Source of the DNA: Liolophura sinensis
Lineage: Eukaryota; Mollusca; Polyplacophora; Chitonida; Chitonidae
Reading direction: 5' to 3'
Assembly: GCF_032854445.1 (NCBI RefSeq)
Contig: NC_088307.1
Location: 7,314,001-7,378,000, forward strand
Length of the DNA: 64,000 nt
The notes under the pieces were generated by a model that saw nothing but the letters and a program-made list of their open reading frames with translations, did not search any database and was not told where the DNA came from. The number at the start of each line of letters is the position of its first letter. Position 1 is the stretch's first letter. A program made the position numbers and the translations under genes. This document shows, piece by piece, positions 319 through 62,439 of the stretch.

Positions 319-3300
319 CTGTCAAACACAATTTATTTATCTGATTGGCGTTTTAAGCCATACTCAACAATATACCTGGTTACCACCAAATCATACACAG
401 CACAATAAACAATTGTAATAAATACTTTAAATGGCCTCAAAACAAGATCAATAGAACTCTAAGTACCATGTAAAAGGATCAACTTGACCACGGACAAAAT
501 TTTAGGTCAAACACAGCATATGAAAAATATTTGTTTATACAAAGGTGAAATGTAAGAATTTCCTTCCATGTAAAAAGTGATATTATCTCACTCAGTTAGA
601 TATCACTTTTGCTATTACACACTCAGATGACATGATGTCAAAAAAGAAACATTTTGTTCATAATGGTCTAATTCAAGCTCAGTCAGAAGACGTCATAATA
701 CATCAACTTCAACGTTCCTACGTCACGCATCAAGACACAAAGTCATACAAGACGTCATGCTACCTACAAGTCTGTGAGCAAGTCCTGCAGCTAAAATATT
801 CAATCTGTAAACGTTCAAAAGACACAAAATCCTTGTATTATCAAAATATAAATAATAAACAGAATATAGTTGGGACTATCTATGTAACAGCTTCTACATC
901 TGACTTGACTAAGACAGTAAACCTGATCCCTACCGCTCCATAGTCTACAGTTTACTGACAGCTTTGACTATCTATGTAACAGCTTCTACATCTGAATTGA
1001 CTAAGACAGTAAACCTGATTCCTACCGCTCCTCAGTCTACAGTTTACTGACAACTTGGACTATCTATGTAACAGCTTCTAGATCTGACTTGACTGAGACA
1101 GTAAACCTGATCCCTACCTCTCCACAAACTCCAGTTTATTGACAGCTGGGACTATCTATGCATCAGCTTATAGATGTGACTTGACTGAGACAGTAAACCT
1201 GATCCCTACCTCTCCACAGTCTACAGTTTACTGACAGCTGGGACTATCTGTGTAACAGCTTCTAGATCTGACTTGACTGAGATTGTAAAACTCATACCTA
1301 CCTCTCCACAGTCTCTAGTTTACTGACAGCTGGGACTATCTGTGTAACAGCTTCTAGATCTGACTTGACTGAGACTGTAAAACTCATACCTACCTCTCCA
1401 CAGTCTACAGTTTACTGACAGCTGGGACTATCTGTGTAACAGCTTCTAGATCTGACTTGACTGAGACAGTAAACCTGATCCCTACCGCTCCTCAGTCTAC
1501 AGTTTACTGACACCTGGGACTATCTATGCAACAGCTTCTACATCTGACTTGACTGAGACTGTAAAAATGATACCTACCTCTCCACAGTCTAAAGTTTACT
1601 GACAGCTGGGACTATTTATGCAATAGCTTCTAGATCTGACCTGACTGAGACAGTAAACCTGATCCCTACCTCTCCGCCGTCTACAGTTTACTGACAGCTG
1701 GGACTATCTGTGTAACAGCTTCTACATCTGACTTGACAGAGACAGTAAACCTGATCCCTACCTCTCCTCAGTCTACAGTTTACTGACAGCTTGGACTATC
1801 TATGTAACAGCTTCTACATCTGATCTGATTGAGACAGTAAACCTGATCCCTACCTCTCCACAGTCTACAGTTTACTGACAGCTGGGACTATCTATGCATC
1901 AGCTTCTAGATGTGACTGGACTGATACTGTAAACCTGATCCCTACCTCTCCGCCGTCTACAGTTTACTGACAGCTTAGACTATCTATGTAACAGCTTCTA
2001 CATCTGACTTGACTGAGACAGTAAACCTGATCCCTACCTCTCCACAGTCTACATTTTACTGACAGCTGGGACTATCTATGCATCAGCTTATAGATGTGAC
2101 TTGACTGAAACAGTAAACCTAATCCCTACCTCTCCACCGTATACAATTTACTGACAGCTGGGACTATCTGTGTAACAGCTTCTACATCTGAATTGACTGA
2201 GACAGTAAACCTGATCCCTGCCGCTCCACAGTCTACAGTTTACTGACAGCTGGGACTATCTGTGTAACAGCTTCTAGATGCGACTTAACTGAGACAGTAA
2301 ACCTGATCCCTACCTCTCCACAGTCTACAGTTTACTGACAGCTGGGACTATCTATGTAACAGCTTCTAGATGCCACTTAACTGAGACAGTAAACCTGATC
2401 TCTACCTCTCCACAGTCTACAGTTTACTGACAGCTGGGACTATCTATGCATCAGCTTATAGATGCGACTTAACTGAGACAGTAAACCTGATCCCTACCTC
2501 TCCACAGTCTACAGTTTACTGACAGCTGGGACTATCTGTGTAACAGTTCCTAGATGCGACTTAACTCAGACAGTAAACCTGATCCCTACCTCTCCACAGT
2601 CTACAGTTTACTGACAGCTGGGACTATCTATGCATCAGCTTATTGATGTGACTTGACTGAGACAGTAAACCTGATCCCTGCCGCTCCATAGTCTACAGTT
2701 TACTGACAGCTGGGACTATCTGTGTAACAGCTCCTAGATGCGACTTAACTGAGACAGTAAACCTGATCCCTACCTCTCCACAGTCTCCAGTTTACTGGAA
2801 GCAGTCCTCTGCTCTTCCTGAGCAGTGTGAAGTTTGTCTCGTAGCTGCTCTAGCTGATCTCCCTGAACCTCCACCTGTAAAAACACACACATACAAACTT
2901 TAATATAAAAATACCATATGAATGGTTTTCTTCAGAAACAATTTTACTATGTCACCATTGTGTCTTGATCTTTGTAGCATGATGTCTAAAATGGCACAAT
3001 TATACAGACTACAAATCTCTTGCACATGATATTTCTAGCTCACTGTAAGAAGACGTTACTGTTCTATCACATGCTACACTGCACCCGGTCTCATGTGAAC
3101 TAGCTGAGAGAAGTGACAGCTATCTGTTTGACCTGTACATTCGCATCTGTAATCAGTCTGTTTAATATCAATGTAATTCTTTTGACAGTTTAATTTTACG
3201 AGTAAACCTGTTAGGTTTTAGACCAGAAGAAATAGCAATGGTAAGAGTATTAAACTACCCCAATTTGCCAGATGGGAGTGTTTCCTCTTCTGAAAATTTT

Positions 3301-6300
3301 ATTTATTATTTAATTGATTGGTATTTGACACTGCAAGAATTTTCACTTTCACGCTGGTGGTCAGATTCGTGGGTTGAGTAAACCAGCCCAAAATGCATAA
3401 GTTTATTTTATTTATTTGATTGATATTTTATGCCCTATTCAAGAATATTTCACTTATACGACGGCGGCCAGCATTATGGTGGGAGGAAACCCTGAATGTA
3501 TAAGGACAGCACCTTTAGTTACATCTAAACCCACCCTTAACTACCACGACAATGCATGTTGTGGCGATATGAAGTGTGTTTTAACAGTAGAGGGCTATTT
3601 TATCACTTCTGTAAAAATCTTCAACCTTTTCAACCTCTAAAGCACTTTTTTCAGTGGAATTTAAGCATACAATTATTATAAAAGTGATGCTAACATGATC
3701 TGTTGGTGTCACCAAAGATGCAGGCTTCAATAAAGCTGTGCAAATTATTTCTTTACACCCCATCATTCTCTCAAAATGTTTTAAAATATTGGTTGCAGAG
3801 GTGGTTGTAAAAGTTGAAGAATTACATGTAGGATAAGTACACTTCATGAAACTGACTGGTCTCCTAACTTAAAATTGCCGATGAACCAATAAGAACATGA
3901 AAGCTCAATGGTCAACAGCATGACAACCATCTGACTTTTGTCCAATTCTAGAATCGGCACAAGTGAGCGAGTCATCAAATTTCTGGCAAGTCAAGATTCA
4001 TCTATCTGATATCATTACAACCTATTCTCTCCAAAGTTGCTTTCCGTTAAATTCACAATGATCAATGATTTCAAAACAGCCCTCAACTAGTCATAGAAAT
4101 CAGAAGAAAATGGGCAAAATTCAAGGATATTTCCAAATGCAGTTATAAAATGTTTTTGAAAAGTTTCAATTCTTTCATTGGAACTAAATCTTTACAAATG
4201 GTTATGTCAAAATCGCCTGGTTACTGGAAAACATCTGGATTTACCTGAAACTGCATACTGACGATTCACATCTCCACCTGTCCACACTAAACCTACCTTC
4301 ATGACCTTTGTACAGATTCTAACTTTTTACACAGTGATCTCATTTCTCAGGCGACCACTTCTCTCTACTTTTCTGGTTATCATACTTCTTTATCTGAGCC
4401 TTGCCCCTCCCACTGAATTTGGTAGCCTATTTACCAACGTGGTGATCTACCCTCCTGCCCTGTCGTACCTTTGCTGTCAGCTCCGCAATCAGTTTGGTAT
4501 TTTCAGCATTCTTTCTCTCGTACAGGACCATTCTCTCTGAAGACTCGTGTAACTTGATCTCTGTGGACTTAAGCATCTCGGGCAAGGGATCTAACTCCTG
4601 CAGTCTCTGCTGAAGACGTAACTTTACCTGTGGACAGCCAGATTGGCATCATCATCATCACAAGTCATGGCTGTACTGCATGATACTGAATACTAACACA
4701 AGGCCATCTTTAAAAAAACCATTTGTTGAGGGTATCTTATTAAACTTATCAGAAAGGAAATTTTTGCGGGAATTTTTTTTTTTTTTTTCGTGATGAATGA
4801 AAAGGATAGGGATTTATCATGAAATGAATTTTAAGACAAAATTTTTTTAAAAATCAGAAATTCCATGAAAAAAACATTCGCGTAGGGTTGTTTTCTTCGG
4901 AAGGTTGGTCGGATTTATATCCCTAAGGCTCATATTTTTCATAATGGCCCAAGTAGCTCACTTAAATGATGAAGGGGAAGTAGTTTCATATTCATCATGT
5001 TTCATCAGACTTCTATCCTACATTTACCAGTGCAAGCTTCTAAAAAGTTCAGGCTTTTCTACAGTAAACCAAAGATAAATTCATGGAAGTTATGTGTTAA
5101 CTGTAAATCGGACAGAATTTCACTTCACTCGTTACCCCCTTTGTACAGCAGCATGACTGAATAGCTGGGGAAAAATTCTATTGCTCCCTGACTATTTTGC
5201 TCTGTCAATATCAAAGAGCAGCACTAGAGTGTCACAAGTTCAAATGAGAGCCTAGAACAACTACAGCTTTTTTGGCACTCACCTTATCCAAACTTCCATC
5301 AGAAAAGCATCATCAATAAGGGCTTTATTAAACGTACAATGCCGTAAACTTACAACACACATCCGCAAGCCAAGTTCGTATGCAAGAGTCATCTCCCTTA
5401 CCCTTTCCAGTTCGACTTCACCGTCCCTCTGGATCCTATCGTTCTCTTTCTGCGTCTCCTCCAGCCTACACATGGTGTCATCAGCTTCACGACGAGAACG
5501 ATTCATCTAAAAATACAAATGAATGCCGGGTTAATAGTCAGTGTTACCAGGAAGCCAGAAGCTCCATGTCCGGTTAGAAATTTATTGTCTTTATTCTACA
5601 AATATGGTACTGGATTAACATCTTTTTTGAACTCATTATTTTACAATAATATTATGGCATGGTTTTGTCTGTTCATTCATAAATTTTTGAATGTTACCAC
5701 TAAGCCTGGAGAACAGCTGCACTTAAAGTTATAAAATCTGCTCACATTTTGTCTCGATACCTTCCGAGCAAAAGACAATTGAAATAAGTCACTTCACTTA
5801 TTTACTTATTTATGCTCTCTCTCTCTCTTTTTTTCTTGATACATTGGTTTTTCATGTCAGCACTAAATTACAAAAAATGCTTCCCTTACAGAGTTCGAAA
5901 GTGGATGATTCTGTGCTATTTGGTCATCAATACCAAGTCTGATGACACTGTTATGCTATGGCTGGCAAATATGTAGGTTCCAAAACTATTATCTGCACAG
6001 TACTGTACACTGTGTAATTGTTGATTTTTTTTTTGCAAAACACAATTGAGACAACAAACTGATGTAGTTTGGGATGAGAACATTACTGTGATTTCAAGGA
6101 GAGAAAAGACATATACATGTAATTTATACAATTTCTGTAGTTGTATTAAAACTAAATTTTGGGATGCAAAATGACTACAACCTGATTTATGCCCATGCAT
6201 TTTTTACTTTTTTTTAGTTTTTGGAAGAGTCTTAAAGCCGGGAACAGACTAAACAGATTTTTTTGCTTGTACATGCGTATTTTGTGAACTTCTAAAAATC

Positions 6301-9300
6301 TGCCTAGCATCAGCGATCTCACTGTCTGCGTAGTGTGTCTGCTCTGGCAAATTTCAGCAATCAGGATGATCGAGCTGACCAATCAAACAATGGGGAACTG
6401 TGCAGACCTGTGACATTCTGTTTTTTACTAATTCACATGGCATAATCTATTGACGACGATCAACGGAAAAATCTGCCTAGTGTGTCTGCAACTATGCTGC
6501 AAATATCTCCCGGGCAATTAAGTTTGTCCCTACATACGAAAAAATCTGCCTAGTGTGTCCCCGGCTTTATAGAGGGTATTACAGCATCATTTATACACAA
6601 TGTGTACCAACACTACACTCATGATACATGTACATACATACATACATACAGGTATCATTGTTCGCATTACACACATACAGGTATCATTGTTCGCATTACA
6701 CACATGCAGGTATCATTGTTCATATTAAATACCTATATGTATTATTGTTTGTATCACATACACATATCGTATCAGTCACTTTAAAATTTAAATAAAAGAA
6801 GCAAATATTTATCCTGTCTAACATCCATTACTACATGCATATCCACACCCACTGCCAAACAAATACAAAAGTTTCTTATTTACAGATTTAATAGCATGGT
6901 GTTATATTAGTGTTAGTAAGCATGCCTACGGACACGTACACCTTCCCAAGCATGCAGTGACTAACAACAAAGCTACATGAAACATCTTCATCTCATAACC
7001 CATTTTCATGATTCATTTGCATGTACCCCCACCACTGCGAACTGAGACATCCACAATGAATTGTAGCTCCTTATTTAAGGTTCTGAAATTACCGACTTGA
7101 ACGAACAGAATTGTGATCTGCAGAAACTCCATACAAAACGTATACAATTTGAAGAAAAACCTTCACGCACATCAATAATATACTACCACACTGAATTACC
7201 AGCAATCAATCAACTTGGAACTGAGGTTGAGCTCAGAAGAATTCACTCAAATTTACAGAGTTTAACATACATGTACATGTACGTAAACTCAACCCAAAAT
7301 ATAAATGCAGGAGGCAATTTTTATATTGTTTTTTTCTCAGTATTAAATAATGTGTTAACTCAACAATTAGGGTAAGTATTGATTATCAAGAGTGGCTTCA
7401 ATGTCCACTTCAATTGGGCCACTTGATTTTAAGAAAATAAAATCAATCAGTATACAAATAAATAATTTGTGGAGGGGGGTGGGGGAGGGGCATGTTTCAT
7501 GAAAGGTTATTTTAACATAGCATTTTTGATTTGTGCGTCTATATTTTTGTTGAGTGTGCATAATGATGCTAGAGAGAACATCCATTTCTCAACAAGACGG
7601 GACAACCCGCAGCCTGATACAGCATCATCAAAGTATATGTAGTGTTAATAGTAATGAATGCAGACAGTGTTTGAATCTTTCCCAAAACCAGAACAAAAAA
7701 TCGTTAATCATTTTATCTCCATGTACCAAGGGCAGTGTCAACTATTGTGGTTTTACTCCTCTTTTCTCCACCAATAAATCAAGCTATCTTCCAATAAAGT
7801 AAAAGATTCTTGGGAATGTACTAAGCAAATTAATGATCCAATAGTTTTATCTCTACATCTAGGTACAATACATGAAAAACAGTTGACAACTTCTCATTAG
7901 ATTTCTGTAAGAGGGGTCTTATTTCGGTCACAGATGGAGGGTAAGACTGCTGTAGTTTTGTACATGCAATAAGTTACCCAAAATACATACTGGGAACAAA
8001 TCTGAACAACTTCTATTAACAGAGGCTTTCTACCAAAGACAGTTATAATAGACAGAGAGAGTGCAAAACTGAAATAAGGCAAGCTAAGAGAACAAATGCA
8101 CTACAAATACCACAATGGATGATAAAAATGCTGAATTCTACAAAGCATTTTGAAACAAGTCAGTTGCATTCCTACATTGCATTTTTGAATATTACAAGCC
8201 CAAATCACACTACACACCTAAAATCTATTTCTAGACAGGTATTTTAATACTGATTATAAGAATGTCAGAATTGATATTATCCTATTTCAGAAAATTACAT
8301 TGCAGTCTTACCTCTTTCTAAATGTACACTGATCATTTTCAATCGCAGTTTACTGTCACCACAGACAGAACCTTCATCCTTCACATATATCAATACAATC
8401 AGCCTTCAACTATCACATAGCAACATGACCTTGCCCTTTAACCCCTGACCAGCTACAGTTCTAGTAATAAGAGCATGCAGCACAAGGGCTAACTTTGACA
8501 TCTACTAAAAGTCTACAATACAGAACAACATGCAGTCTCACCCTGGATCTGAAACGTGTCAGAAAATCAGGCAAAGGCCGGTCTGGATATTTTAAATTGT
8601 ACTCTAAAAACTGAAAGGAAACATTTAACTATTGTGAGGGAATGAAGTAGTGAGTATAGCAGTTCTGTCCCAAAAGAAACATCAAAAAAAATCAAGGCTG
8701 GAGAATTTCCCACCTGCTTTATGGTTGGAAGAATCTGGAGTACCTGAGATAAACCAGCATCCTTTGGGAAGATAGAGATGAAGATTACATCATACAGTGC
8801 CCAGTTTGACAAAGCACACTTAGCTAAGTAAGGCCTTAACTTCCATGATAACATGTTGTAGAGATACAAAGTACACTTAGCCAAGTAAGACCTTCACTTC
8901 AATGATAACATATGTTGTAGAGATACAAAGCACACTTAGCTTAGCAAGACCTTAACTTCAATGACAACGTACGTCGTAGAGATACAAAGCACACTTTTAG
9001 CTAAGCAAGACCTTAACTTCCATGACATCATACCGGCCCGGATAGCACAGTTGGTAGAGCGTCCGCTTCGGGACCGGTAGATCCAGGATCAATCCTTGGT
9101 CGAGTCACACCTAAGACTTTAAAAGAGGAAGTTGTAACTTCCTTGCTTGGCGTTCAGCATGAAGGGGATAGTGCAACGACTGGTTGACCCGTATCAGTAT
9201 AATGGCTCGGGCGGGGCGACTTACTTGCCTTCGGTAAGTCGTCTCAGTGATGCAGCACTAAATAAAAGAGCGGTGGAAATCCGTCCTGCAACAAGGAGGC

Positions 9301-12300
9301 ACATTACAGGTGCATGCACCCTAATGATTCCTTCGTCGTCATATGACTGAAAAATTGTTGAGTACGACGTTAAACCCCAAGCACTCACTCACTCACTCCA
9401 TGATAACATATGTTGTAGAGATACAAAGCACAATTAGCTAATTAAGACCTTAACTTCCATGATAACACATTTTGTAGAGATACAAAGTACACTTAGCTAA
9501 GTAAGACCTTCACTTCAATGATAACATATGTTGTAGAGATACAAAGCACACTTAGCTAAGTAAGACCTTCACTTCAATGACAAGGTACGTCGTAGAGATA
9601 CAAAGCACACTTAGCTTAGTAAGACCTTAACTTCCATGATAACATATGTTGTAGAGATACAAAGCAAACTTAGCTAAGTAAGACCTTCACTTCAATGATA
9701 ACATATGTTGTAGAGATACAAAGCACACTTAGCTAAGTAAGACCTTAACTTCAATGACAAGGTACGTCGTAGAGATACAAAGCAAACTTAGCTAAGTAAG
9801 ACCTTCACTTCAATGATAACATGTTGTAGAGATACAAAGCACACTTAGCTTAGTAAGACCTTAACTTCAATGATAACATATGTTGTAGACATATAAAGTA
9901 CACTTAGCTAAGTAAGACCTTCACTTCCATGATAACATATGTTGTAGAGATACAAAGCACACTTAGCTAAGTAAGACCTTCACTTCAATGATAACATATG
10001 TTGTAGAGATACAAAGCACACTTAGCTAAGTAAGACCTTCACTTCAATGATAACATATGTTGTAGAGATACAAAGTACACTTAGCTAAGTAAGACCTTAA
10101 CTTCAATGACAAGGTACGTCGTAGAGATACAAAGCAAACTTAGCTAAGTAAGACCTTCACTTCAATGATAACATATGTTGTAGAGATACAAAGCACACTT
10201 AGCTTAGTAAAACCTTAACTTCCATGATAACATATGTTGTAGAGATACAAAGCACACTTAGCTAAGTAAGATCTTAACTTCCATGATAACATATGCTGTA
10301 GAGATACAAAGCACCCTCAGCTAAGGACCATTGTATAACACTAAGAACGCTTTGTGAAACTTGGGCTGATTCCAGAAGTCCCTTAAGCCAAGATTTAAAA
10401 ACATTCAAATTTTGACTTTAAGTCAAATGGTTTTGTGCAGCCCCCTGATAAAAAGACAAATGATCGAAGGCAAAATTCTCCAAACAGCCCCACAATTGTC
10501 AGACCGCTTACTGTCACCTAGAAGAGTGCACGGATTGAACCCGCACCAATCAGTTTTCCTCGATGAGTTCTCACCCATTTTCAGTTTCAGCAATATGACA
10601 TATGGCATGAAGTCCAGGAATAATCACACGACGGAAACAAAGACAGGTATGACAGGTAACATTTCCGTACATTCCCAATCTGTTAATGCTTCATAGGGAG
10701 ATAGTAACTGTGATGAAAAGAAGAGCTGTGCGCAAAAATGACAGCAACATTGTTATATACCACAGACATGGCAAATGCAGTATGCAGACATGGATGCAAT
10801 ATGAAAACAAAAGTGAAAGTGTAAAAGTTGCATAGGCTACACAAAGAAAGATGATTAATGATACATGTACTTCTGACGCTGAAGCCAGTACTGTGGCTGT
10901 CTGGTGGCACAATATGGCTCAGAAAGCTCACAATGTTTACATCTAGAGTAAGTATGTTAAATGAAATTGATACACTCAAGCTAGTGCAGAGTCTTATGGT
11001 ATAATGCAATGTGGTGCAAAAAGTCCACCATATTATCAAGAATAAGCATGCTGAATGATGCTTGTTACACTCAAGCTAGTGCCGTATTTCATGATATAAT
11101 GCAATATGGTCCAAAAAGCCCACCATACTTTTATCTAGTGTAAAGCCATCCAAGACACCAGAATTCCGATATGAAGTGGACATGCACATGACCCAGGGCT
11201 ATATTACCAGACAGGCAGCACCTACCCTCAGTGACTGTAAATTCTTACTCTGATCAAGGAAATGTACTGTCTGTAAACACACAGTTTGTAAAATTATACA
11301 AAAAAAACAAAACAAAACAAAACAAACAAAAACATTTTAACTTTCAGACTGCAAATCTACTGTAATATGTAACCTTTAGAGGGGTCAGGAAGAAAACAAA
11401 TGAAGTACGGATCGTTAAAGGCAAACTGTATGTAAAAATATACCTGCCAAGTATAACAATTATTTATATAATTATTTAATTATTTAAGAAGTCATGGTTC
11501 ACAGGAGCATAAAATAAAATTTTGATGATGAGATAATAAATCCACAACAACAACAACCAACCAAGATGATTTCTACTCCTGTATGAAGTCTGGATGACCT
11601 TTTATACACAAACATACAAGCCATGTGAGCTTAGTGTCAACAAACTAATGTAGGTGTGTCTCTCATCAGAGTGCCATGCCCATACTCGTGACACATCACA
11701 GCACCCGCCCCACCTTACCAATACCCACTCACGACATGCAGCCACACTATGCTGCCGTACACAAAGTCTATCCATTTCACAAGCTGAGATGTTTCAGAGA
11801 GGAATGAATGGGCTTGATTATGGGCTGATGTCCCTTTGGCAATATTGTAGCCATATTGTGGCGAGGACTTACGAGTGGAACAGGAGGTACAACTGAACAG
11901 ATTTCTCACAGATCTGATATGTTCAGATACACTACTTCTCCTACAAAGTACCCACCAAAGAGGTACCAAATAGGGGCCACTTTCACGAAAAAAGTTTCAC
12001 GTAATATTTTTGCAAATGATGTTGTCTAGACTGTAGCTCCATAAGGGCGATGTGATTTATGTGAAAAGTTATGAAAAAATGATTTATGAAGTTTTGTGCA
12101 AAATGGTTATGCTCTGTCTCATTTTTCTAACAATGTCACACCTGTCATTAACTTGATACACCTGAATCATGCTGTCTGTGGCAGGTATATAATGTCAGAG
12201 CTGTCTGGGGCAGGTATATAATGTCACACCTGTCATTAACCTGACATACCTGAATCATGCATTCCCCTACTAAGTTCAAGAACTGTTTGGTGCAGGTATA

Positions 12301-15300
12301 TAAAGTCACACCTGTCATTAACCTGACATACCTGAATCATGCATTCCCCTACTAAGTTCAAGAACTGTTTGGTGCAGGTATATAATGTCACACCTGTCAT
12401 TCACCTGACATACCTGAATCATGCATTCCCCTACTAAGTTCAAGAACTGTTTGGTGCAGGTATATAATGTCACACCTGTCATTCACCTGACATACCTGAA
12501 TCATGCATTCCCCTACTAAGTTCAAGAACTGTCTGGGGCAGGTATATAAAGTCACACCTGTCATTAACCTGACATACCTGAATCATGCATTCCCCTACTA
12601 AGTTCAAGAACTGTTTGGTGCAGGAATATAAAGTCACACCTGTCGTTAACCTGACATACCCGAGTTATGTATTCCACTACTAAGTTTTTGTACTGTAGGA
12701 GACGGGTACACAATGCAATTAATCAGGCATACTTGATTCCTGTACTCCTCTAATGATGGAGACAGGTAAATCTACATGATGTCACACCTGTAATTAACCT
12801 GTTTTACACGAGTCCAGAATTCAAATTCTCCAACTGTTGGAGACTGGTAAATAATGTCATACCTGTAATTCATCTTACGTACCAGAGTTCTGCATTCCTG
12901 TACCAAATTCTTGTGCTGCCTGAGACGGGTATATAATTTCACACCCGTAATTAATCTGACATACCTGACTCCTGTACTCCTCTACCAAATTCTCATACTG
13001 TCTGAGGTTTGCCCTTAGCTGATCTATCTCCTCCTCACTCTGGTTAACTTTACTCTCCAGGCTGGAGACTGTAGACTGTGAACACAATAAAACATCTTTG
13101 TGAATATGAGAAAACATCACTGTGAACACAAGACAACATCACTGTGAACACAAGACAACATCACTGTGAACACAAGACACCATCACTGTGAATATGAGAA
13201 ACACTGTGAACATTTCTCATATTGTGAATGAGAAAACATCAATGTGAACACAAGACAACATCACTGTCAACACAAGACAACATCATTGTGAACACAAGAC
13301 ATCACTGTGAACACAAGACAACATCACTGTCAACACAAGACAACATCACTGTGAACATGAGAAACACTGTGAACATTTCTCATATTGTGAATATGAGAAA
13401 ACATTAATGTGAACACGAGACAACATCACTGTCAACACAAGACAACATCATTGTGAATATGAGAAAACATAACTGTGGACGCGAAAGAACATCCATGTGA
13501 AAACGAGACAACATCATTGTGAACATGATAAAACATCACTGAGAACAAGAGACATCACTGTGAACACGAAAAAACATCCCTGTGAACATGAGAAAACATG
13601 GGATCTTTCAAAGGGCCTTTGGGCCATTGTGAAAGAGTTGACTTTTTTTTCTTACTTTATGGCTTTCTTCAGTTTTACAGTCAATTAGTCTAATGGCATT
13701 TGATTTCTGAATATCTGAATATTTTAAAATACTGGTGGAGGAAAAATGTTCAGGTTCTATTATCATTATTATATGATACTTTTTGTGACAATTGCTGACA
13801 AAAAAAACGGAACAATGAATTCAGATGTGAAGGGTAAAATTATGTGTGGGCCACAATTTTATTTAAATATTTTTTAAATATCATGCCACTTTGCAAACTG
13901 TGGTTCCACAAAGCGATTCTGCACATACGGTTTTGTAAAAACTGGGGCAATGTTTGAACGAGTTATTGCCCAGGATCACAAAGCGATCTTAGACTTAAGT
14001 CAAAATTTCAATCATTAAATTCGTTATGTTCCATTCCATTATTTTAGCTGAAATTTGAAATAACTTACCCTGAATCTACATTGTCTAGCAATGTTTTGAC
14101 GTTGTTCGGAAATGAACAATTTCAAAGTGAATTGAATTAAAGTCTAAGGTGGCTTCGCGATCCCGAGGCCTAAAACTAAAGCATGATGACCCAAATTACT
14201 GTTTACGTGTTCAGCTGTCTCACCCTAAGTCTTTCATTGTCCAGTCTGAGGCCCGTGAGCTCGCTGGTTTTGTCCTGAAGCTGAACTGACAAGTCTTCCG
14301 TTTGTGACTTACTGCTCTCCTCAACTCTGTCCAACATACGCTCCACTTCTGTTATTCTCCTGTAACATCAAATGTACTGAATGGTTCTTCATAGACAACT
14401 AATCCCCACATCATTTATTTATATATCTGATAAGATCAGGGGAAACCCTTGGCCATCCAGAGGTTGCTGACAGAACTTCCCACAAACGGCCAGAGAGGGA
14501 GCTAGGCTTGAGCTCAGCTTGCGCCGTGCTGTCATGCTAACCACCTCGGCCATGGAGGACTCCACCAGCGACATTTGGCAAGACCTACTGTTTACACACA
14601 CCCTGTTGACATATGCAGTAATACACACATTTCAGTGGGAAGGTCTGTCAGCAACCTGTGGATGGTCGTGGGTTCTGCACGGTTTTCTCCCACCATAATG
14701 CTGACCGCTGTCATTTAAGTGACGTATTCTTGAGTATGACGTAAAACACCAATCAAATAAATAAATAAATAATACATGTACATACATTTCAAATACTCGC
14801 CTCACATGTAACAACTTAAAAATAACTGTTTTAACATTGACAGTATTGTGTATAGAGAAAAGATGATTGCTGGTTGGATTTCCTGCTTAATAAAGCCTAT
14901 ATTGAGTCAAAATAACAGTTACTACAACACAAGAGTATACATAAAATATATGTGTTATGACACTGAAAACAATATACATGCATTGAAGAAAAACAACAAA
15001 AAGAAAGCATGGCTGCAGAAGATTTACTGAATCATGCAAGGTCCCTGAAAACAAAAATTTACTGCCATGGAAACAGGGGCTTGATTTGAACTTGCAAGCT
15101 ACAGGACTGTGTAGTTTTGTCTCCAAAATCAAATTACTAATGTACTAAATTGCACTGAAAGTTGCTCTTTCAGATGCAAAAAGGTTGAGGACTAAGATGT
15201 AGTCTAATATCAGATTAATATCAGTACAAACATAAATTATTACGATTTCAGTCTTAGCAGAGAAACCAACAAAACAACACTGTTAAATGTTATAAATGTT

Positions 15301-18300
15301 AAATACAACACTCGTGTTGAGTCCTACAATGGTGTTCTCTGTCATCAGTCTGAAAGTCGATTGTAACGGGCAACATTCTGTCAGTCAATGAGTTTGTTAA
15401 CATTCATCCCATATACGACTACAAAGTATTATGTTTGGTCTTTGGGTTACTTGGTTCTAATTCACTATGAATTATTACAGGGATGTATGTGTAAGTTGAA
15501 TGCCTGTTACTCTAGTTGCTACACACTGTCAATGTTAAATGCACATTTAAGTCCAACAAGGTAGTGCTCGTTGCATATTAAAGTGAGACACTCACTGCTG
15601 GAGCTTTGTGTCCATGCTGATACTTGTCGTTCAGGTTACACACGTCACATACAATGTCACAATCACTACACTCTTCATGCCCAATACTACAAGGTAAGAA
15701 TTCAGCCAGTCAGTCAGTCAGTCAGTCAGTCAGACACTCACGGCTGGAGCTTTGTGTCCATGCTGATACTTGTCGTTCAGGTTACACACGTCACATACAA
15801 TGTCACAATCACTACACTCTTCATGCCCAATACTACAAGGTAAGAATTCAGCCAGTCAGTCAGTCAGTCAGTCAGTCAGACACTCACGGCTGGAGCTTTG
15901 TGTCCATGCTGATACTTGTCATTCAGGTTACACACGTCACATACAATGTCACAATCACTACACTCTTCATGCCCAATACTACAAGGTAAGAATTCAGCCA
16001 GTCAGTCAGTCAGTCAGTCAGTCAGACACTCACGGCTGGAGCTTTGTGTCCATGCTGATACTTGTCGTTCAGGTTACACACGTCACACACAATGTCACAA
16101 TCACTACACTCTTCATGCCCAATACTACAAGGTAAGAATTCAGCCAGTCAGTCAGTCAGTCAGTCAGTCAGACACTCACGGCTGGAGCTTTGTGTCCATG
16201 CTGATACTTGTCGTTCAGGTTACACACGTCACATACAATGTCACAATCACTACACTCTTCATGCCCAATACTACAAGGTAAGAATTCAGCCAGTCAGTCA
16301 GTCAGTCAGTCAGTCAGACACTCACGGCTGGAGCTTTGTGTCCATGCTGATACTTGTCGTTCAGGTTACACACGTCACATACAATGTCACAATCACTACA
16401 CTCTTCATGCCCAATACTACAAGGTAAGAATTCAGCCAGTCAGTCAGTCAGTCAGTCAGTCAGACACTCACGGCTGGAGCTTTGTGTCCATGCTGATACT
16501 TGTCATTCAGGTTACACACGTCACATACAATGTCACAATCACTACACTCTTCATGCCCAATACTACAAGGTAAGAATTCAGCCAGTCAGTCAGTCAGTCA
16601 GACACTCACGGCTGGAGCTTTGTGTCCATGCTGATACTTGTCATTCAGGTTACACACGTCACACACAATGTCACAATCACTACACTCTTCATGCCCAATA
16701 CTACAAGGTAAGAATTCAGCCAGTCAGTCAGTCAGTCAGTCAGTCAGACACTCACGGCTGGAGCTTTGTGTCCATGCTGATACTTGTCGTTCAGGTTACA
16801 CACGTCACATACAATGTCACAATCACTACACTCTTCATGCCCAATACTACAAGGTAAGAATTCAGCCAGTCAGTCAGTCAGTCAGTCAGTCAGACACTCA
16901 CGGCTGGAGCTTTGTGTCCATGCTGATACTTGTCGTTCAGGTTACACACGTCACATACAATGTCACAATCACTACACTCTTCATGCCCAATACTACAAGG
17001 TAAGAATTCAGCCAGTCAGTCAGTCAGTCAGTCAGTCAGACACTCACGGCTGGAGCTTTGTGTCCATGCTGATACTTGTCGTTCAGGTTACACACGTCAC
17101 ATACAATGTCACAATCACTACACTCTTCATGCCCAATACTACAAGGTAAGAATTCAGCCAGTCAGTCAGTCAGTCAGTCAGTCAGACACTCACGGCTGGA
17201 GCTTTGTGTCCATGCTGATACTTGTCATTCAGGTTACACACGTCACATACAATGTCACAATCACTACACTCTTCATGCCCAATACTACAAGGTAAGAATT
17301 CAGCCAGTCAGTCAGTCAGTCAGACACTCACTGCTGGAGCTTTGTGTCCATGCTGATACTTGTCGTTCAGGTTACACACGTCACATACAATGTCACAATC
17401 ACTACACTCTTCATGCCCAATACTACAAGGTAAGAATTCAGCCAGTCAGTCAGTCAGTCAGACACTCACTGCTGGAGCTTTGTGTCCATGCTGATACTTG
17501 TCGTTCAGGTTACACACGTCACACACAATGTCACAATCACTACACTCTTCATGCCCAATACTACAAGGTAAGAATTCAGCCAGTCAGTCAGTCAGTCAGT
17601 CAGTCAGACACTCACGGCTGGAGCTTTGTGTCCATGCTGATACTTGTCGTTCAGGTTACACACGTCACATACAATGTCACAATCACTACACTCTTCATGC
17701 CCAATACTACAAGGTAAGAATTCAGCCAGTCAGTCAGTCAGTCAGACACTCACTGCTGGAGCTTTGTGTCCATGCTGATACTTGTCGTTCAGGTTACACA
17801 CGTCACACACAATGTCACAATCACTACACTCTTCATGCCCAATACTACAAGGTAAGAATTCAGCCAGTCAGTCAGTCAGTCAGTCAGTCAGACACTCACG
17901 GCTGGAGCTTTGTGTCCATGATGATACTTGTCATTCAGGTTACACACGTCACACACAATGTCACAATCACTACACTCTTCATGCCCAATACTACAAGGTA
18001 AGAATTCAGCCAGTCAGTCAGTCAGTCAGACACTCACAGCTGGAGTTTGGTGTTCTCACTGAGCAACTGTGTCTTCTCCTTGTTGTGTTTCTCACACCGC
18101 GCCCGGATCTGCGCCGTTGACGCTTCCAGGTCAGCTAGCTGATTCTCGCGCTCCAACAGCTGCACCTTGATCTGCTCCAAGGCGTCTTCTGTGCGCGACG
18201 CTCGCTGTTTTTGTGCCCTGTCAATGGGAGAAGTAACCCCTGACTGACCAATTCGCTGAGTGACTTAACTCAGTTAATAATCACAAAGTTTGTATATGGA

Positions 18301-21300
18301 TGGAGAAGTAAAAATACTCCAGGATGTTCAGATGCTATTTTAGGACAGCCAGGTTAACAAACAGTACAAAATTAGGTATCAAACTTTACATAACATCACA
18401 ATTTCCAAGGACAGTTATTAAACTTTTCTAAGCAGACAAGAGTGAGTGAGTTTTGTGGGTTTAATGTCGCATTTAAAAAAATTTTCAGTCATAAAGACTA
18501 CAAAGGAGTCCTTGTAGTGTATGTAATGTGCCTCCTTGTTGCAGGACGGATTTCCACCCCTCTTTTATCTAGTGCTGCTTTACTGAGGTGATTTACTGAG
18601 GGCAAGAAAGCTGCCCCGCCCGAGCCATTATACTGATACGGTCAACTAGTCATTGCACTATCCCCTTAATGCCGAACGCCAAGCAGGGAAGTCACAACTT
18701 CCTCTTTTAATGTCTTAGGTGTGACTTGACCCAGGATTAATCCTGGATCTACTGTTCCCGACGCGAATGCTCTACCAACTGTGCTAGTGGGGCCGGTCCT
18801 AGGCAGACATGACAGATATCAAACTTTTCCAGTCAAATATCAAACTTTCAAAGGCCGATATAAAACCTTTCAAGGACCATTTTAAAACTTTACATGGTAA
18901 CCTGATGTCTTAATACTACATGTACCTACAAATCCACAAGAATTGAATTCTGCTCTGACATACATTTATTTGACTGAATACTGTTTTATGATGTACTCAA
19001 GATGACTTATACGACAGTGGCCAGCATAATGGTGGGAGAAAACCGGGCAGAGCCCATGGGGAAACCCCAACCATTCGCAGGTTGCTGGGAGACCTTCCCA
19101 TGTACTGCCAGAGAGGAAGTTACTTACAGTGACCGTATTGGTGGGCGGTTTCGGGTCACTGCGCCATGATGTCATGATAACCCCCTCGGCCACGGAGCTC
19201 TCCCCCGCCCCCAAGGATATGCAACTAAATATGGGACTGGTACTATGTGCTTGAACTAGTAATGTTTTATCAGTGATTTAATCTATGAGCTCTACAATAC
19301 TTCTGATACAATACTAGAGTTGTTAATCGTACAAACTGTACCACTGGGTTAAGGGAGCCACGTAAGCACATATAATTTCTTGCCAAATAACACAGTTACA
19401 TGTGCACTCCTATATGAAGGTACACCAAACACAATATACATACAGAAACTCCACAAGTACTTAGGACAACACATTTACACAGGGACTCGTTTTGGCTGAT
19501 ACAAAATCTAGAAGTACACACACTCTACATGTATAGGTCAGAATGTCAGCAGACACCACACATCCGTGGAAAGAGTTAATCAAACTATCACAAAATTACT
19601 GGTTTTTCACACTTAACCTTTAATTAGAAAGTACAACATATTTCATCACCCTGAGGCCTCACTTAATAATATGAATAATGATAGTTTTCTGTCCACCCAT
19701 GACCTCCAATAAGTGACCACTGAGCTCCCATAAGTGACCACTGAGCTCCCATAAGTGACCTGTGACCTCCACTCAACGACTCTTGACATCCCTGATGTGA
19801 ACCTTGAATTCCCATCAAAGACACTTGACATTCTGTCAGTGACCTCTGATCTCTGAGCCCCTCAATGACATCTAAGCCAGCCTGTGACCCTTGATCTCCC
19901 TTAAAAGACCTCTGACCCCTCTGTTTCCCTGACCTCACCTGGTAGCTTTTTTGAGGGCCTCCTTGTCGCGGTCACCCTTATCCCGGGCTGTGGCTAGCAG
20001 TTCTGTCAGATGCTCACACTCGATTCGAGACTGGGCCAGATCACTCTCCAGGCTCTACAACAACAACAGCAACAACTAAAACACCATATCAACAAAGGAA
20101 ACACAACCCTGACATATATGCAGTAACCAAAATGTAGTTGGACACAGGCCCCCATTACAACTTCCGTTTTTCGAGAGGGACGAATGTAATTTTGTGTATT
20201 TTAGGGTGTAAAGTCTTTTTTAGCTGCCAGCCTGCCACTTTTGGTGTACAGCTGCATCCTTGGTATCAAAATGCTGGAAATTGTCTAAAAGCTTTGGGCA
20301 GGTATGAGTTTTACTGATGAAAGTTTGAAATTCTAGGCGAGAGGACACAAGGAGATAGGTGGTGATGAGGCTGCGAGTGACGTCCCGTTGGTGTTGCTAG
20401 GCATCCCCTCCGAGCTGCCAGCATAGAAACGTCTAGATTTTGACAGTCAGCCTATGTCAATATTTTAATGGCTTCTTTCTCACAGGCTGGGTCAGGCATG
20501 TACCAAAGCTTACTGGCCACAGAATGTTTGGCGCTGAGCTACAGCGCTAAACGTTAACATTGTAGCTTATGGAAAATTAATGGGGGCCTGTGGCCAGATC
20601 CTGTCCACTTGTGCCAAAATATGTGATATGTCACTGTGTGCTCAAATTTCGCAGCAGCCTGATAATATTTGGTGAGTACATCTGCAATGTGGTTTGCATT
20701 GACATGGAACTTGATTGAGCAATTTTAAAGCTTTTTAATTCTATATTTCCCCACATATCTGTTTTGTCTAAAAATCAGCTAAAACACTCTGTGGTAGTAT
20801 AGGTGTATGAGCAGGCTGGAACAAACACAGACAACGTTTCATTGTTCCTGGTTTTTTAAATGTCTCTTTTGGGGCTGAAATAGGATAAATAATGCAAAAT
20901 TTGAGTGCTGTGAGTGAAACTGGAGTACGTGGCTGGTAGATAGGGTGTGTGATTAAGGATGGTCAATAAGGCCGTGCATCACAAATAAGGGCCAAGCTTC
21001 ACATAGGTGGATAAAAACACATCAGCAGATTAATTTACTTGGCTAGAGTAGTAGAGAGGGCCAGTGTGCATTTAATACACAAACCAAGTCAGGTTTCGCC
21101 CATGTGTGCCACCATACACTAGGTAAATGTGCATCAAATCAACCTGCAGTCACAAAACATGAAAAACAGGCATCTCTGCTGCAACACTGGCTACTGCCTT
21201 GGGTATAGGCTTAAAGCTGACAAGGTTAATTTTCCTCTTAAAACTTAAAAATAAACCACTGTAGTTGTCATTGCATGTGTGTATTCATTTCTCTGACAAG

Positions 21301-27300: not shown

Positions 27301-30300
27301 TGGTACAAGGAACTAACACCTTGATAAATATGGTACTGGGACTGGTATTGAAACGCCTCTCATAAATCATCCATGAAACAAGGCAGTGGTTGTCCATGCA
27401 CACAGTCGTTCTAATGCCAATTCCACAAAGCTATTGCAGATTTCAGTACAAAATTTTAAGTTTTAATAAACCTCATCACAATGCCTAGTTTTTAGTAAGG
27501 GAAATTGAAATGTTAACGCATAGATATCTGTAAAAAGATAAGACTGATGAGGTGGGAAAAACATTGTTTTCTTCAGCTCTTCAGCATTTCTTCAACTATT
27601 TTGCGATATTGCTTGTCAGAAATGGTTTTGTGGGATCGACCCGTATCTTCCTAAGCGGAGAAATTAAGATCAAAAAAAAAACAAAAAACATGGAATCTCC
27701 AGGTTCACTTTATAATGACATACACCGAAGCTTTGGTGAATGAGTATAGAATGGGGTGAAACACTGTTTACATGTAGCAGGGTGGCACTTTGGGCTAATT
27801 TGATCCCTCACCCCTAAGTGCTGTTGTTATCATATTAATGCTCAGACAATGTCAGTGATGTTCTCATCTACTACCCAGATGCATATACATGTACAAGTAC
27901 CATATGACAATAAAATCCTACCATTTCACTATTCAGTTTACAAAAAATTAAAAAGGCATTCAAAGCTACTGTAATAAAAACTGCTGAAGGACACATGAAA
28001 AGGAACTATAAAACAAAGATTATGTTTCTAGACCAAATGAAGAAAATTATGCCTTGGAATTGTTGCTAAAAATGTTTATTTTCAGGGGTATTTTTGTAAC
28101 TGTTAATTACCCCTTTATATTATGCACATTTTCCGTAAACGATTAGAGTTTTGTACTCTAATCTGTACACTAATGCTGCATTTCTCCCTATGGCCAGCTT
28201 AGCTGCCCCTCCGCACCCCTACACCTGCCCTGTTCACCACACCCCTGCCCCCATTCGCCCAGACCTGTTCAGTCTATCCCCAACAGAGTTCTTTTTAAAC
28301 AGGGATCATCGTCGGCGCCAGAGCTGCAAGCTACATGTACATGTATTCCCTGACTGACCAGAAGGGCATTAAGAAAACTTTACTCTGAAGCCATTTTTAC
28401 CTCCCAAAATGAAAGCTGAAAAATTTGTTTGTACCGCTATGTTATTTATTACACGCGACAATCTGCACATTAAGAAATAAAACCAAAGCGTTTCATGTAA
28501 CTTTTAATTTTCTCAGTTTCTAAATGATAGAGACTACATGTTATTTTTTCCCTCTTAAAATATTCACAAAGCAAAATCCACTTTTTTTCATTGCTATTTT
28601 GTTGACAACATTATCTTGTTTGAGTGCAAGAACTTCCACACCAACATACATGACCTCATGGCATTGAATGGATCTGAATGAAGAAACTGAGCAGTACTGT
28701 GTGGAAGATGCTGGGCACTGTGTGTCTCATCTTGTGGGTTAATCAGGAATTTACATGGACCAAATGTACTTGTACACCAGTTCTTTGAGCACTTATTTTG
28801 CTATGTAGTCTAAGTTTACACAGTACAGAGCATCTATGAGCCTTGTAGTACAACTGGTACTTCCATTCTCCAGTACCATGTAGTTCTGAGTCACACAATA
28901 ATGTGCATCTATGAGCCTTATAGTGCTACTGCTACTTCCACTCTCCAGTACCATGTAGTTTTGAGTCACACAATAATGTACATCTATGAGCCTTGTAGTA
29001 CAACTGCTACTTCCACTCTCCAGTACCAAGTAGTTCTGAGTCACACAATAATGTGCATCTATGAGCCTTGTAGTACTCCTGGTACTTCCACTCTCCAGTA
29101 CCATGTAGTTTTGAGTCACACAATAATGTGCATCTATGAGCCTTGTAGTACAACTGCTACTTCCACTCTCCAGTACCATGTAGTTTTGAGTCACACAATA
29201 ATGTGCATCTATGAGCCTTGTAGTACAACTGCTACTTTCACTCTCCAGTACCAAGTAGTTCTGAGTCACACAATAATGTGCATCTATGAGCCTTGTAGTA
29301 CTCCTGGTACTTCCACTCTCCAGTACCATGTAGTTTTGAGTCACACAATAATGTGCATCTATGAGCCTTGTAGTACAACTGCTACTTCCACTCTCCAGTA
29401 CCAAGTAGTTCTGAGTCACACAATAATGTGCATCTATGAGCCTTGTAGTACTCCTGGTACTTCCACTCTCCAGTACCATGTAGTTCTGAGTCACACAATA
29501 ATGTGCATCTATGAGCCTTGTAGTACAACTGCTACTTTCACTCTCCAGTGCCATGTAGTTTTGAGTCACACAATAATGTGCATCTATGAGCCTTGCAGTA
29601 CAACTGCTACTTCCACTCTCCAGTACCATGTAGTTTTGAGTCACACAATAATGTGCATCTATGAGCCTTGTAGTACAACTGGTACTTCCACTGTCCAGTA
29701 CCATGTAGTTCTGAGTCACACAATAATGTGCATCTATGAGCCTTGTGGTACAACTGGTACTTCCACTCTCCCGTACCATGTAGTTTTGAGTCAAACAAAA
29801 ATGTGCATCTATGAGCCTTGTAGTACAACTGCTACTTCCACTCTCCAGTACCATGTAGTTTTGAGTCACACAATAATGTGCAGGAGTCATGCAGTTACCC
29901 TAATTCCTCAGCCTTTCCGCATGAAATAGCATCTGTCAGTGCAATTTAGGCACATTTTTCACTTGATTTTGGAGACAAACCTACATTGGTTGAAGAGTTT
30001 TTAGAGGGTTTTGCAAAAAAATATAATTTTATCAGCATAGACAGAATAAGACCTTCAGAATATGCTTGAAGAAACACTTTGCAATTGTGCAAAGAGGTTG
30101 AAGAATTACAGTACTGCACAGTGCCACAGGGTTTAGAATACTCTCTCTCTACAACACAAAATGTCATTTTTAAGTGGAGCTACCTCCATTTCTTAAATAC
30201 TACTGTTATGTTTGGTGTTGGGGTTAAAAGGTCATTCAGGCAGAATCTGAATTTGTGAGGAAAGTTATGCTGTGTACATTATTTGTCTTCCCCTCACCTC

Positions 30301-33300: not shown

Positions 33301-36300
33301 ATTACAATGTATTGTTTTCAGCACATGAATGACAGGTCAGCTTATCTTCACTGGTCGTAAGCTTGATCTAAGTAGAATTTATTTGTGGACCAGGCCCCAT
33401 TTTCACTAAAAGTTGTAAGTTGCAATTCCAATCCTAAAGCTTACAACAGACAACCACATATACATGTATCACATATATGTCCTAAACCTCTCCAACATAA
33501 TATGTACCAAATCTGCTCAATGTCTTCAAACAGTGATACATGTATCACATATATGTCCTAAACCTCTCCAACATGATATGTTCCCAATCTGCTGTATGTT
33601 ATCAATCTGTTAAATGTCTTCAACCAGTGATACATGTATCACATGTACTAACCCTCTCCAATATGATATGTTCCCAATCTACTGTATGTCATCCATCTGC
33701 TAAATGTCTTCAAACAGTGATACATGTATCACATATATGTCCTAAACCTCTCCAACATGATATGTTCCCAATCTGCTGTATGTCATCAATCTGCTACATG
33801 CCTTCAACCACTGATACATGTATCACATATATGTCCTAAACCTCTCCAACACAATATGTACCAAATCTGCTAAATGTCTTCAACCAGTGATACATGTATC
33901 ACATATATGTCCTAAACCTCCCCAACATGATATGTTCCCAATCTGCTAAATGTCTTCAACCAGTGATACATATATCACATATATGTCCTAAACCTCTCCA
34001 ACACAATATGTACCAAATCTGCTAAATGTCTTCAACCTGTGATACATGTATCACATATATGTCCTAAACCTCTCCAACACAATATGTACCAAATCTGCTA
34101 AATGTCTTCAACCTGTGATACATGTATCACATATACGTCCTAAACCTCTCCAACACAATATGTACCAAATCTGCTAAATGTCTTCAACCTGTGATACATG
34201 TATCACATATATGTCCTAAACCTCTCCAACACAATATGTACCAAATCTGCTAAATGTCTTCAACCTGTGATACATGTATCACATATACGTCCTAACCCTC
34301 TCCAACACAATATGTTCCCAATCTGCTAAATGTCTTCAACCAGTGATACATGTATCACATATATGTCCTAAACTTTTCCAATATGATATGTTCCCAATCT
34401 GCTAAATGTCTTCAACCAGTGATAAATGTATCACATATATATCCTAAACCTCTCCAATATGATATGTTCCCAATCTGCTGTATGTTATCCATCTGCTAAA
34501 TGTCTTCAATCAGTGATGCATGTATCACATATATGTCCTAACCCTCTCCAATATGATATGTTCCCAATCTACTGTATGTCATCCATCTGCTAAATGTCTT
34601 CAATCAGTGATGCATGTATCACATATATGTCCTAACCCTCTCCAATATGATATGTTTCCAATCTGCTAAATGTCTTCAACCAGTGATACATGTATCACAT
34701 ATATGTCCTAAACTTTTCCAATATGATATGTTCCCAATCTGCTAAATGTCTTCAACCAATGATACATGTATCACATATATGTCCTAACCCTCTCCAACAT
34801 AATATGTTCCCAATCTCCTAACTGTCTTCAACCAGTGATACATGTATCACATACATGTCCAGCCGTACGTGGGAAGGTCTGTTGGTCTGAAGGTCTGCTG
34901 GTTGTAGGTTCCCCCAAGCTCGTTTTCCTTTCACCATACTGTTGCTTGTCCTTGTATAAGTGAAATATTTGTGAGTACAGCGAAAAACCCCACTCAAATG
35001 AACAAAATAAATAAATACCAGTGCTAGCAGGGCCATTATACACACATGTATGTCCCTAACCTGCCAAAATATGCCTCCAATCACTAAAATATATCCTCAA
35101 CCTAAAAATAAATTAGGTCCCCATTCCATTAAAAATTGGTCATGACAAATGCAGTCGGCAGAAACTACAATTATTTCAGTATTTCAGAAATCATTATTTA
35201 ATAATCAAATGTTTGTTCAGCTTGAGATCCACTGATGGAGCTGTAAATCAATGGACAGGAAAGCAAAACAACTTTCATGTTTGTGATGTCAGTGTGGTTA
35301 CCAGCTACCTCAGACCCTGGAGACCGTGTACATGTACCACGTAGCTGTACATCACAACGAACTATGATGACTAATGAGCCCCAGCCGATGATCAAATCCT
35401 GAAGGTGTGTACAAGGTATTCCTTTATTGTTGTCTGGAAAACGGGCTATGCAAAAATTTAAAATGCTCTACAAGGAACTGGGGGCTGAAATTTGAATATC
35501 TACGAAATACAACTAATAAGCATAATAATGCAAACAGAGTGAATCTTTCTTGTTTATATGAGTTGTATGGGTGAAGGAAACCATAAAACATCACCAAGCC
35601 CTTGGCAAGTAATTGGTGAACCCCAAGAACAATGGGGCTAAGGGAATATGCAGGATTCTCTACAAGTAGCTGTTTGAGTGAGTGAGTGAGTGCTTGCGGT
35701 TTAACATCGTACTTAACAATTTTTCAGTCATATGACGATGAAGGAATTCTTAGAGTGCATGTAATGTGCCTCCTTGTTGCAGGACAGATTTCATCTAGTA
35801 CTGCTTCACTGAGACGCTTTAGCGAAGGCAAGTAAGCCGACCTGCATGAGCCGTTATACTGCTACGGGTCAACCGGTCATTGCACTATCCCCTTCATGCT
35901 TAACGCCAAGCTAGGAAGCTACTTCCCCTTTTAAGGTCTTTGGTGTGACGAGAGCCAGGATTGACCCTGGATCTACCGCTCCTGAAGCAGACCCTCTATC
36001 AAATGTGCTATCGGGGCCAGTAATCCTGAATCTGTGCACACGGTATTCCATTATTGTTGTCTGGAAAACGGGCTATGTAAAAATTTAAAATGCTCTACAA
36101 GGAACTGGGGGCTGAAATTTGAATATCTACGAAATACAACTAATAAGCATAATAATGCAAACAGAGTGAATCTTTCTTGTTTATATGAGTTGTATGGTTG
36201 GACGAAATCATATAAAACCACCAAGCCCTTGGCAAGTAATTGGTGACTCCCAAGAACAATGGATTCCCTACAAGCTGTGTGAGTGAGTGAGTGAGTGCTT

Positions 36301-60964: not shown

Positions 60965-61400
60965 TCATTCCTTCATGCCGTCGTTCCATCACTTCATGCC
61001 GTCTTGTTGTCGTTTCATGCCGTCTTGTTGTCGTTTCGTGCCGTCTTGTTGTCGTTTCGTGCCGTCGTTCCATCACTTCATGCCGTCTTGTTGTCGTTTC
61101 GTGCCGTCGTTCCATCACTTCGTGCCATCTTGCTATCACTTCGTGCCATGGTCCCATTGTTTCTTGCCATCTTACTATCGCTTCGTGCCATGAACCCATT
61201 GCTTCATGCCAACTTACTATCGCTTCGTGCCGTGATCCCATTGCTTCATGCCATCTTATTATCGCTTCGTACCATTGCTTCGTGCCATCCTGCTATCGCT
61301 TCATGCGATGGTTCCATTGCTGTCGCTTTGTGCCCTCGTCCCGTGTCATCGTATCATCCTCCCATCGCTTCTTGTCTTCGTCCAATATCACTTCGTTTCA
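60965..61400. repeat. ~21-bp minisatellite
   Basis: TTCATGCCGTCTTGTTGTCG-type units of 18-21 bp are repeated about 20 times, becoming more diverged to the right. It opens long frames on both strands (RRHETTT-type repeats minus; SFRAVLL-type plus), which I treat as artefacts of the repeat. Confidence 0.9.
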
Positions 61401-62072: not shown

Positions 62073-62439
62073 GCCCTTCTGGATGTAACAGCCAGCCTTA
62101 CTTTACATGTGTGGAATTAAATTAAACCTGTTGGCTTTGATATGAGTCGTTTTGTATGATACGATGCCCTTTTGTCTAAATTGAAATGTAAATAGATCAC
62201 CGATTACTTTTTCTAAGATTGAAACGTCTGAGTATTTGCCAAGAGAAAGAAAAGCTGCCGCAGAGGTAGCGTGCTCTGGCCATGCTTCATACTCAGATGA
62301 ACAGAAAGGAGGCTGTGAGAATGTACTCGTAGCATCATGCGGAATTCAAGGATCAGTTCGTTAACCAACCGGTATTGTGTCATTAAGTGAAATTCTAGGA
62401 AATTTTTCTTTACCGAAAAAAGCATTACAGCTCCGGGTG

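Follow-up and report, generated by a model that had tools for sequence, protein, structure and literature searches.

Mirage minisatellites, in which an exon-intron border is repeated in tandem, have been described in amphioxus in the genes for Adh3, the globins BflGb6 and BflGb9, troponin C and PGBD5, with units of 10-160 base pairs (bp) that lie on the donor or the acceptor side and keep the AG or GT in many, not all, copies (PMC3087553, PMC3902484). According to the same accounts, their copy number varies between haplotypes, splicing was reported as undisturbed, and they were proposed as a source of new introns (PMC3087553, PMC3902484). Here we describe arrays of this kind in the chiton Liolophura sinensis, whose assembly (609,464,459 bases in 632 contigs) was first published under the name Liolophura japonica, which its authors later corrected to L. 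sinensis (PMC12441733). The window analysed is a stretch of 64,000 nucleotides of contig NC_088307.1 (C13:7314001-7378000), where a gene for a long coiled-coil protein, labelled ODF2 in the initial annotation, has arrays built on the donor borders of three exons. Border-carrying arrays also occur in four other gene families of this genome, more often than uniform placement would give.

The kind is already known from amphioxus, and as far as the published descriptions go the likeness is close. The units in the window (92, 82, 146 and 22 bp) fall within 10-160 bp, the unit spans the border at the exon-15, exon-12 and exon-10 donors (the exon-12 acceptor array has the intron side only, and the exon-9 array does not span its border), and most, not all, copies keep the splice dinucleotide (45/47 in the window). 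Unlike the amphioxus cases, the chiton arrays belong to another phylum, come from a sample of several gene families in which their number is set against chance, and reach up to about 50 copies in one array (control region L035). What is new is that they occur in a mollusc, that their frequency is given and exceeds a simple expectation in two gene sets, and that a test for selection on the extra sites was negative; among titles and abstract openings of the open-licence literature we found no report of mirages in a mollusc and no paper joining "chiton" and "minisatellite".

The human gene IFI6 (6-16, G1P3) has a minisatellite of very short unit, some copies of which are reportedly used in messenger RNA. 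To go by the title of a 1995 article in Nucleic Acids Research, this minisatellite contains multiple splice donors, and in multiplying a donor it resembles the chiton arrays. Tandem duplications with splice signals have also been linked to intron gain (Rogers; Zhuo 2007; Gao and Lynch 2009, as cited in PMC3087553); the chiton copies likewise carry such signals, but lie within existing introns, and no new intron is shown. In an annelid, the earthworm metallothionein genes have similarly large intronic minisatellite arrays, and border copies are not described in the accessible part of that report (PMC12783039).

The gene in the window lies on the minus strand, and the exons called join in phase; their numbering is that of the initial annotation. 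In the border test, a 24-base segment with the border at its centre was moved along the adjacent array, skipping the true border, and the best match was compared with pools of borders from other genes (133 donors, 130 acceptors). The exons and arrays concerned, with two comparison loci, are as follows.

2774..2874, minus strand: exon 15, phase 0 to 2
871..2797, minus strand: 92-bp array, 20.9 copies, on the exon-15 donor; border match 24/24, p 0.008 (the lowest this pool allows)
12965..13075, minus strand: exon 12, phase 0 to 0, with an array on each side
12130..13006, minus strand: 82-bp array on the exon-12 donor; border match 20/24
13075..13599, minus strand: 22-bp array, 25 copies, at the exon-12 acceptor; border match 15/24, p 0.13
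18038..18217, minus strand: exon 10
15582..18036, minus strand: 146-bp array, 17 copies, on the exon-10 donor; border match 21/24
19690..19938, minus strand: degenerate 21-bp repeat near the exon-9 donor; border match 13/24, p 0.47, border not carried
8809..10325, minus strand: 59-bp arrays in intron 12, for comparison; 14/24 against the donor (p 0.42) and 15/24 against the acceptor (p 0.11), not border-derived
28830..29882, minus strand: 75-bp array, for comparison; 13/24 and 12/24, not border-derived

The 92-bp unit consists of about 24 bp of the end of exon 15, its donor (GAGAG/GTAGGG, the slash marking the border) and intron sequence; there are 20 extra border copies, 18 of which keep GT. 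At exon 12 the exon-side unit includes 42 bp of exon end and the donor (CAG/GTATG), those 42 exon bases lying inside the array, and GT is kept in all 10 extra copies (9 by the border-test count). The 146-bp unit joins about 15 exon bases to GTGAGTGTCTGACTG, and its 17 extra copies all keep GT. Copies in these three arrays differ from their consensus by 2-15%, and all matches listed by genome searches are local (at least 21 for the exon-15 unit, at least 3 for the exon-12 donor unit and at least 17 for the peptide of the 146-bp unit). Each 146-bp unit (15582-18036) further holds a (CTGA)n stretch directly after the donor and an open frame of 41 codons (43 in one copy). Because the copies are almost identical, the 17 open frames count as a single observation; a coding role was rejected, since the frame has no Pfam match and none of the 17 matches listed lies outside the array.

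The initial annotation had held that five arrays of this gene touch an exon and carry its border, which is borne out for the exon-15, -12 and -10 donors. The 22-bp array does abut exon 12, ending on its first base, but repeats only the intron side, an acceptor-like ttgtgttcacag, with no exon sequence repeated in 13075-13599; 14 of its 19 AG sites score at least 6 bits. At exon 9 the claim fails, and Tandem Repeats Finder (TRF) recognizes 3.4 copies at 19700-19771. Against about 50 extra donors proposed, we counted 45 border-homologous extra GT sites. The 35-40 acceptor-like sites proposed alongside them leave no signal outside the exon-12 acceptor array, as sense and antisense strands yield similar numbers in the exon-15 array (24 vs 20) and in the exon-12 donor array (9 vs 9). 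That the arrays near 8803 and 28803 are not built on borders was correct (border matches 12-15/24). By homology, 3/9 arrays in the window carry a border vs 0.44 expected (P 0.004), or 4/9 vs 0.64 when mere contact is counted too, with P values that are optimistic because the window is the discovery locus. The nine do not include the array at 33510-34860, since no call was made for its upstream exon.

Border arrays are not peculiar to this gene, since they recur in myosin, dynein, ABC-transporter and kinesin regions. The genome was searched for the domains of these four families, and 52 control regions (275,608 bases; numbered with an L) were taken, the choice resting on exon matches and preceding any view of their arrays. 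To place exon borders, profile matches were combined with reading phase and with a splice-site matrix that had been trained on this gene set. Set 1 comprises myosin and dynein (56 arrays), and set 2 ABC transporters, from 13 places with adjacent exon matches, and kinesins, from five genes only, those with longer introns (20 arrays); some neighbouring regions are parts of one gene. A first pass, in which 23 weakly scored border or intron calls were dropped, covered 64 complete introns, and the sample was then enlarged by myosin exons from a local profile, with rows of expect value (E) above 1.5 omitted, though one such exon end in L036 still served as a stretch edge. Arrays with period below 10 or score below 60 were excluded, same-unit arrays were merged in L029, L035, L049, L051 and L058, and the L016 array (inside an exon) and the L022 array (before the first mapped exon) were dropped. 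The exon chains omit three exons of L026 that are alternatives, and also three copies of exons that lie in arrays of L040 and L038. In L027, L037, L038 and L046, some borders next to arrays were placed by reading with the arrays already in view, and the 24-base homology test with its cut-off of 17 was fixed once the arrays of both sets were known, so that blindness covers the choice of regions, not the criterion. The null model assumes uniform seeds, present intron lengths and collapsed arrays; where TRF gave several periods for one array a short one was used, which lowers the expectation.

Over the four families, 17/76 control arrays carry a border by homology vs 5.5 expected (P about 1e-5), although unmapped exons may conceal more border arrays among the rest. 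Set 1 gives 12/56 vs 4.2 (P 0.0003) and set 2 gives 5/20 vs 1.35 (P 0.0055). With the best-scoring, longer periods the joint expectation becomes 6.6 (P 4e-5) and set 1 stands at 12 vs 5.2 (P 0.002). When contact is counted too, the total is 19 vs 10.1 (P 0.0015), set 2 alone then not being significant (5 vs 2.4, P 0.066). A cut-off of 19 leaves 16/76 border arrays and the p value alone as criterion gives 20/76; the joint excess stands under other cut-offs and longer periods (P 2.4e-4 or lower). Overlap with borders no greater than chance, which would have spoken against the initial annotation, is therefore not what this sample contains. Each border array reaches 17-24 matching bases out of 24 against its own border, the highest value for any other array being 16, and at least one such array, by contact or homology, is present in 17/52 regions; listed arrays with a period of at least 20 make up 17% of the control-region sequence. 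Examples are an 82 bp x 12.7 array on a donor in the myosin region L030, an array with 36 border copies in the ABC-transporter region L047, and a 95 bp x 3.1 array repeating acceptor and exon start in the myosin region L040.

Several features of these regions deserve separate mention. The ABC-transporter paralogues L042, L045, L046, L051 and L052 share the exon end TTCAG/GT, and this border is repeated in the intron of L051, with no listed array there in L042, L045 and L052. An ABC-transporter intron in L048 (1472-6660, coding orientation) holds a 108-bp x 48 array of 5.2 kilobases (kb) that is not border-derived. Adjacent similar exons of one myosin gene, like sets of alternative exons, occur at 3061 and 3511 and at 5195, 5691 and 6291 in L026, and at 4814 and 5714 in L027.

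Several tests bear on function and origin. In a wraparound alignment of 14 arrays, donor positions in the copies were conserved to no greater degree than the other positions of the unit (mean rank 0.45, z -0.65; the 25-bp array of L032 was poorly placed, 12/24). About half the divergence at -3..+6 in a first count had suggested conservation, which was rejected when the effect proved absent in the wraparound alignment; the low value may stem from the picking of copies by their similarity to the border. In arrays with at least 3 copies, GT is kept in 205/227 donor copies and the dinucleotide in 82/112 acceptor copies. Among 36 arrays that lie clear of borders, the sense strand is not enriched in donors (2 vs 1 scoring at least 8 bits), and acceptors (4 vs 1 scoring at least 7 bits) are too few to judge. 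In 17 border-contacting arrays the fraction of the unit that is exonic is in keeping with random breakpoints (mean 0.54, Kolmogorov-Smirnov (KS) p 0.24), and unit length is a multiple of 3 in only 3/22 arrays, which indicates no coding constraint. Continual re-seeding from the exon was rejected, as similarity shows no consistent gradient along 16 arrays (mean rho -0.03). A transcript spliced at a later donor copy would run at once into a stop at exons 10 and 15 or, with the 82-bp unit of exon 12, change frame.

We consider it probable that the arrays are mirage-type minisatellites, arising by random tandem duplications that span a border, expanded neutrally and with silent extra sites. By chance, a stretch of some 25-150 bp that spans an exon border would be duplicated in tandem; the exon would retain its own border copy while the duplicate sits in the intron, and slippage or unequal exchange would expand the duplicate there, often to at least 10 copies. 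The extra splice signals would be silent by-products, given that the exon-adjacent donor is transcribed first with the exon behind it. This course of duplication and expansion, and the silence of the extra sites, we infer; random exon share, non-triplet units, the lack of donor conservation and the lack of a gradient fit random duplication across the border followed by neutral expansion. Some observations weigh against so simple an account. Random placement alone falls short of the 17/76 observed (5.5 expected, 6.6 with longer periods), and of the arrays that come within a unit length of a border, 16 overlap it and 4 lie just inside, where a ratio of 1 to 1 is expected (P 0.006; 16 to 9 within 1.5 units, P 0.013; 16 to 11 within 2 units, P 0.005). 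A preference for guanine and cytosine is weak (p 0.048) and by arithmetic from tercile counts accounts for about 1.2-fold only, and in L032 similarity falls strongly with distance from the exon (rho -0.71). There are 13 donor arrays and 4 acceptor arrays (P 0.049), or 17 and 6 when contact cases and the window are added (P 0.035). This marginal donor bias is not expected under plain neutrality unless selection acts against acceptor copies. It would be understandable if copies of an acceptor do more harm than copies of a donor, the splicing machinery meeting them first. For the two- to three-fold excess our guess is that exon-bearing DNA duplicates more readily and that purely exonic duplications are purged.

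Since border arrays exceed uniform placement, they must be either favoured by a process or retained by a filter, and to that extent the initial suggestion of a process favouring borders is supported by the four other families, with slippage or repair as candidate processes. One such process would be a mutational hotspot at the border, above all at the 5' splice site, where pausing, RNA-DNA hybrids or border repair linked to transcription or splicing start duplications. We regard this as unlikely, although it is the strongest competitor: it would account for the excess, seen by homology also in set 2 alone, for arrays overlapping borders instead of sitting just inside, and for the donor bias, and the non-border arrays are not clustered near exons. 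Indeed, general clustering was rejected, because 6/44 arrays (period at least 20, in stretches with two mapped borders) lie within 60 bp vs 6.5 expected, and these 44 are compatible with uniform placement (KS p 0.32). On the other hand, the breakpoints are not focused on the border, as the exon shares indicate, set 2 loses significance under the contact criterion, and the marginal donor bias may equally reflect purifying selection against acceptor copies. Geometry alone offers a less probable solution, namely that introns were shorter when the arrays arose and random duplications often met borders. Introns are short even now (median 597 bp, 97 introns), so that 5.5-10 border hits among 76 arrays are to be expected from random duplication alone; if introns had 0.3 of their present length, the loose expectation would reach 20.5 vs 19 observed, and the smaller first pass gave only 6/17 vs 3.1 (P 0.056), besides 2 of 35 single borders. 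Yet even at 0.2 of present length the strict expectation is 13.7 vs 17 observed, and the comparison of overlapping with adjacent arrays is independent of intron length.

The initial annotation had also entertained selection for decoy sites, and arrays maintained as decoys or as binding sites for U1, whether to slow or hold splicing or transcription or to protect them, would explain why most donor copies keep GT and why the median copy in many arrays scores like the true site. That part is unsupported, and we think it very improbable: when the whole unit is compared without bias, the extra sites are not conserved beyond the rest, a result that argues against selection for decoys, and arrays away from borders show no donor excess on the sense strand. 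Misassembly, to which tandem arrays are prone, is hardly credible as the cause, because the assembly was built from HiFi reads with a reported mean of 8,347 bp (PMC11068029) while the window arrays are shorter than 2.5 kb, and the copies in the three confirmed arrays diverge from their consensus as described above. A bolder reading can be put forward tentatively, with the balance somewhat against it: exon-intron borders, chiefly 5' splice sites, might be preferred birthplaces of minisatellites here through exon-, splicing- or transcription-dependent mutation, and mirages might be a convergent, genome-wide feature of chitons and amphioxus.

Mirages have so far been described gene by gene in amphioxus. 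A chiton in which about one fifth of the sampled intronic minisatellites carry a border would make them countable, and countable mirages would allow numerical tests of mutation bias, of selection on splice signals and of intron gain by duplication. They also call for caution in gene prediction, where dozens of convincing false donors adjoin true ones.

The ODF2 identity of the gene in the window was neither confirmed nor excluded by similarity searches. A PDB search of its product gave no match at E 0.01 and four at E 0.07-0.13, none of them ODF2, and a Pfam scan of a 255-residue part gave six hits, all under the curated cut-off. The in-phase exon model, in which for exons 11, 13 and 16 (3/9) a candidate was chosen for phase while the top score belonged to another, comprises the following exons.

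23392-23276, 20054-19939, 18217-18038 and 14359-14224, minus strand: exons called, first part
13075-12965, 5506-5402, 4627-4469, 2874-2774 and 318-237, minus strand: exons called, second part

Further repeats lie elsewhere in the window. Minisatellites with units of 42 bp (60972-61302) and 53 bp (62436-62688) are situated outside the mapped exons. Two perfect arrays of one 20-bp unit (AACGTATGCTAGTAGCTCAT, 2.2 copies each) at 46230-46272 and 49800-49842 stand 3.6 kb apart and are perhaps ends of mobile elements, and a short perfect repeat at 55041-55083 has a unit different from AACGTATGCTAGTAGCTCAT.

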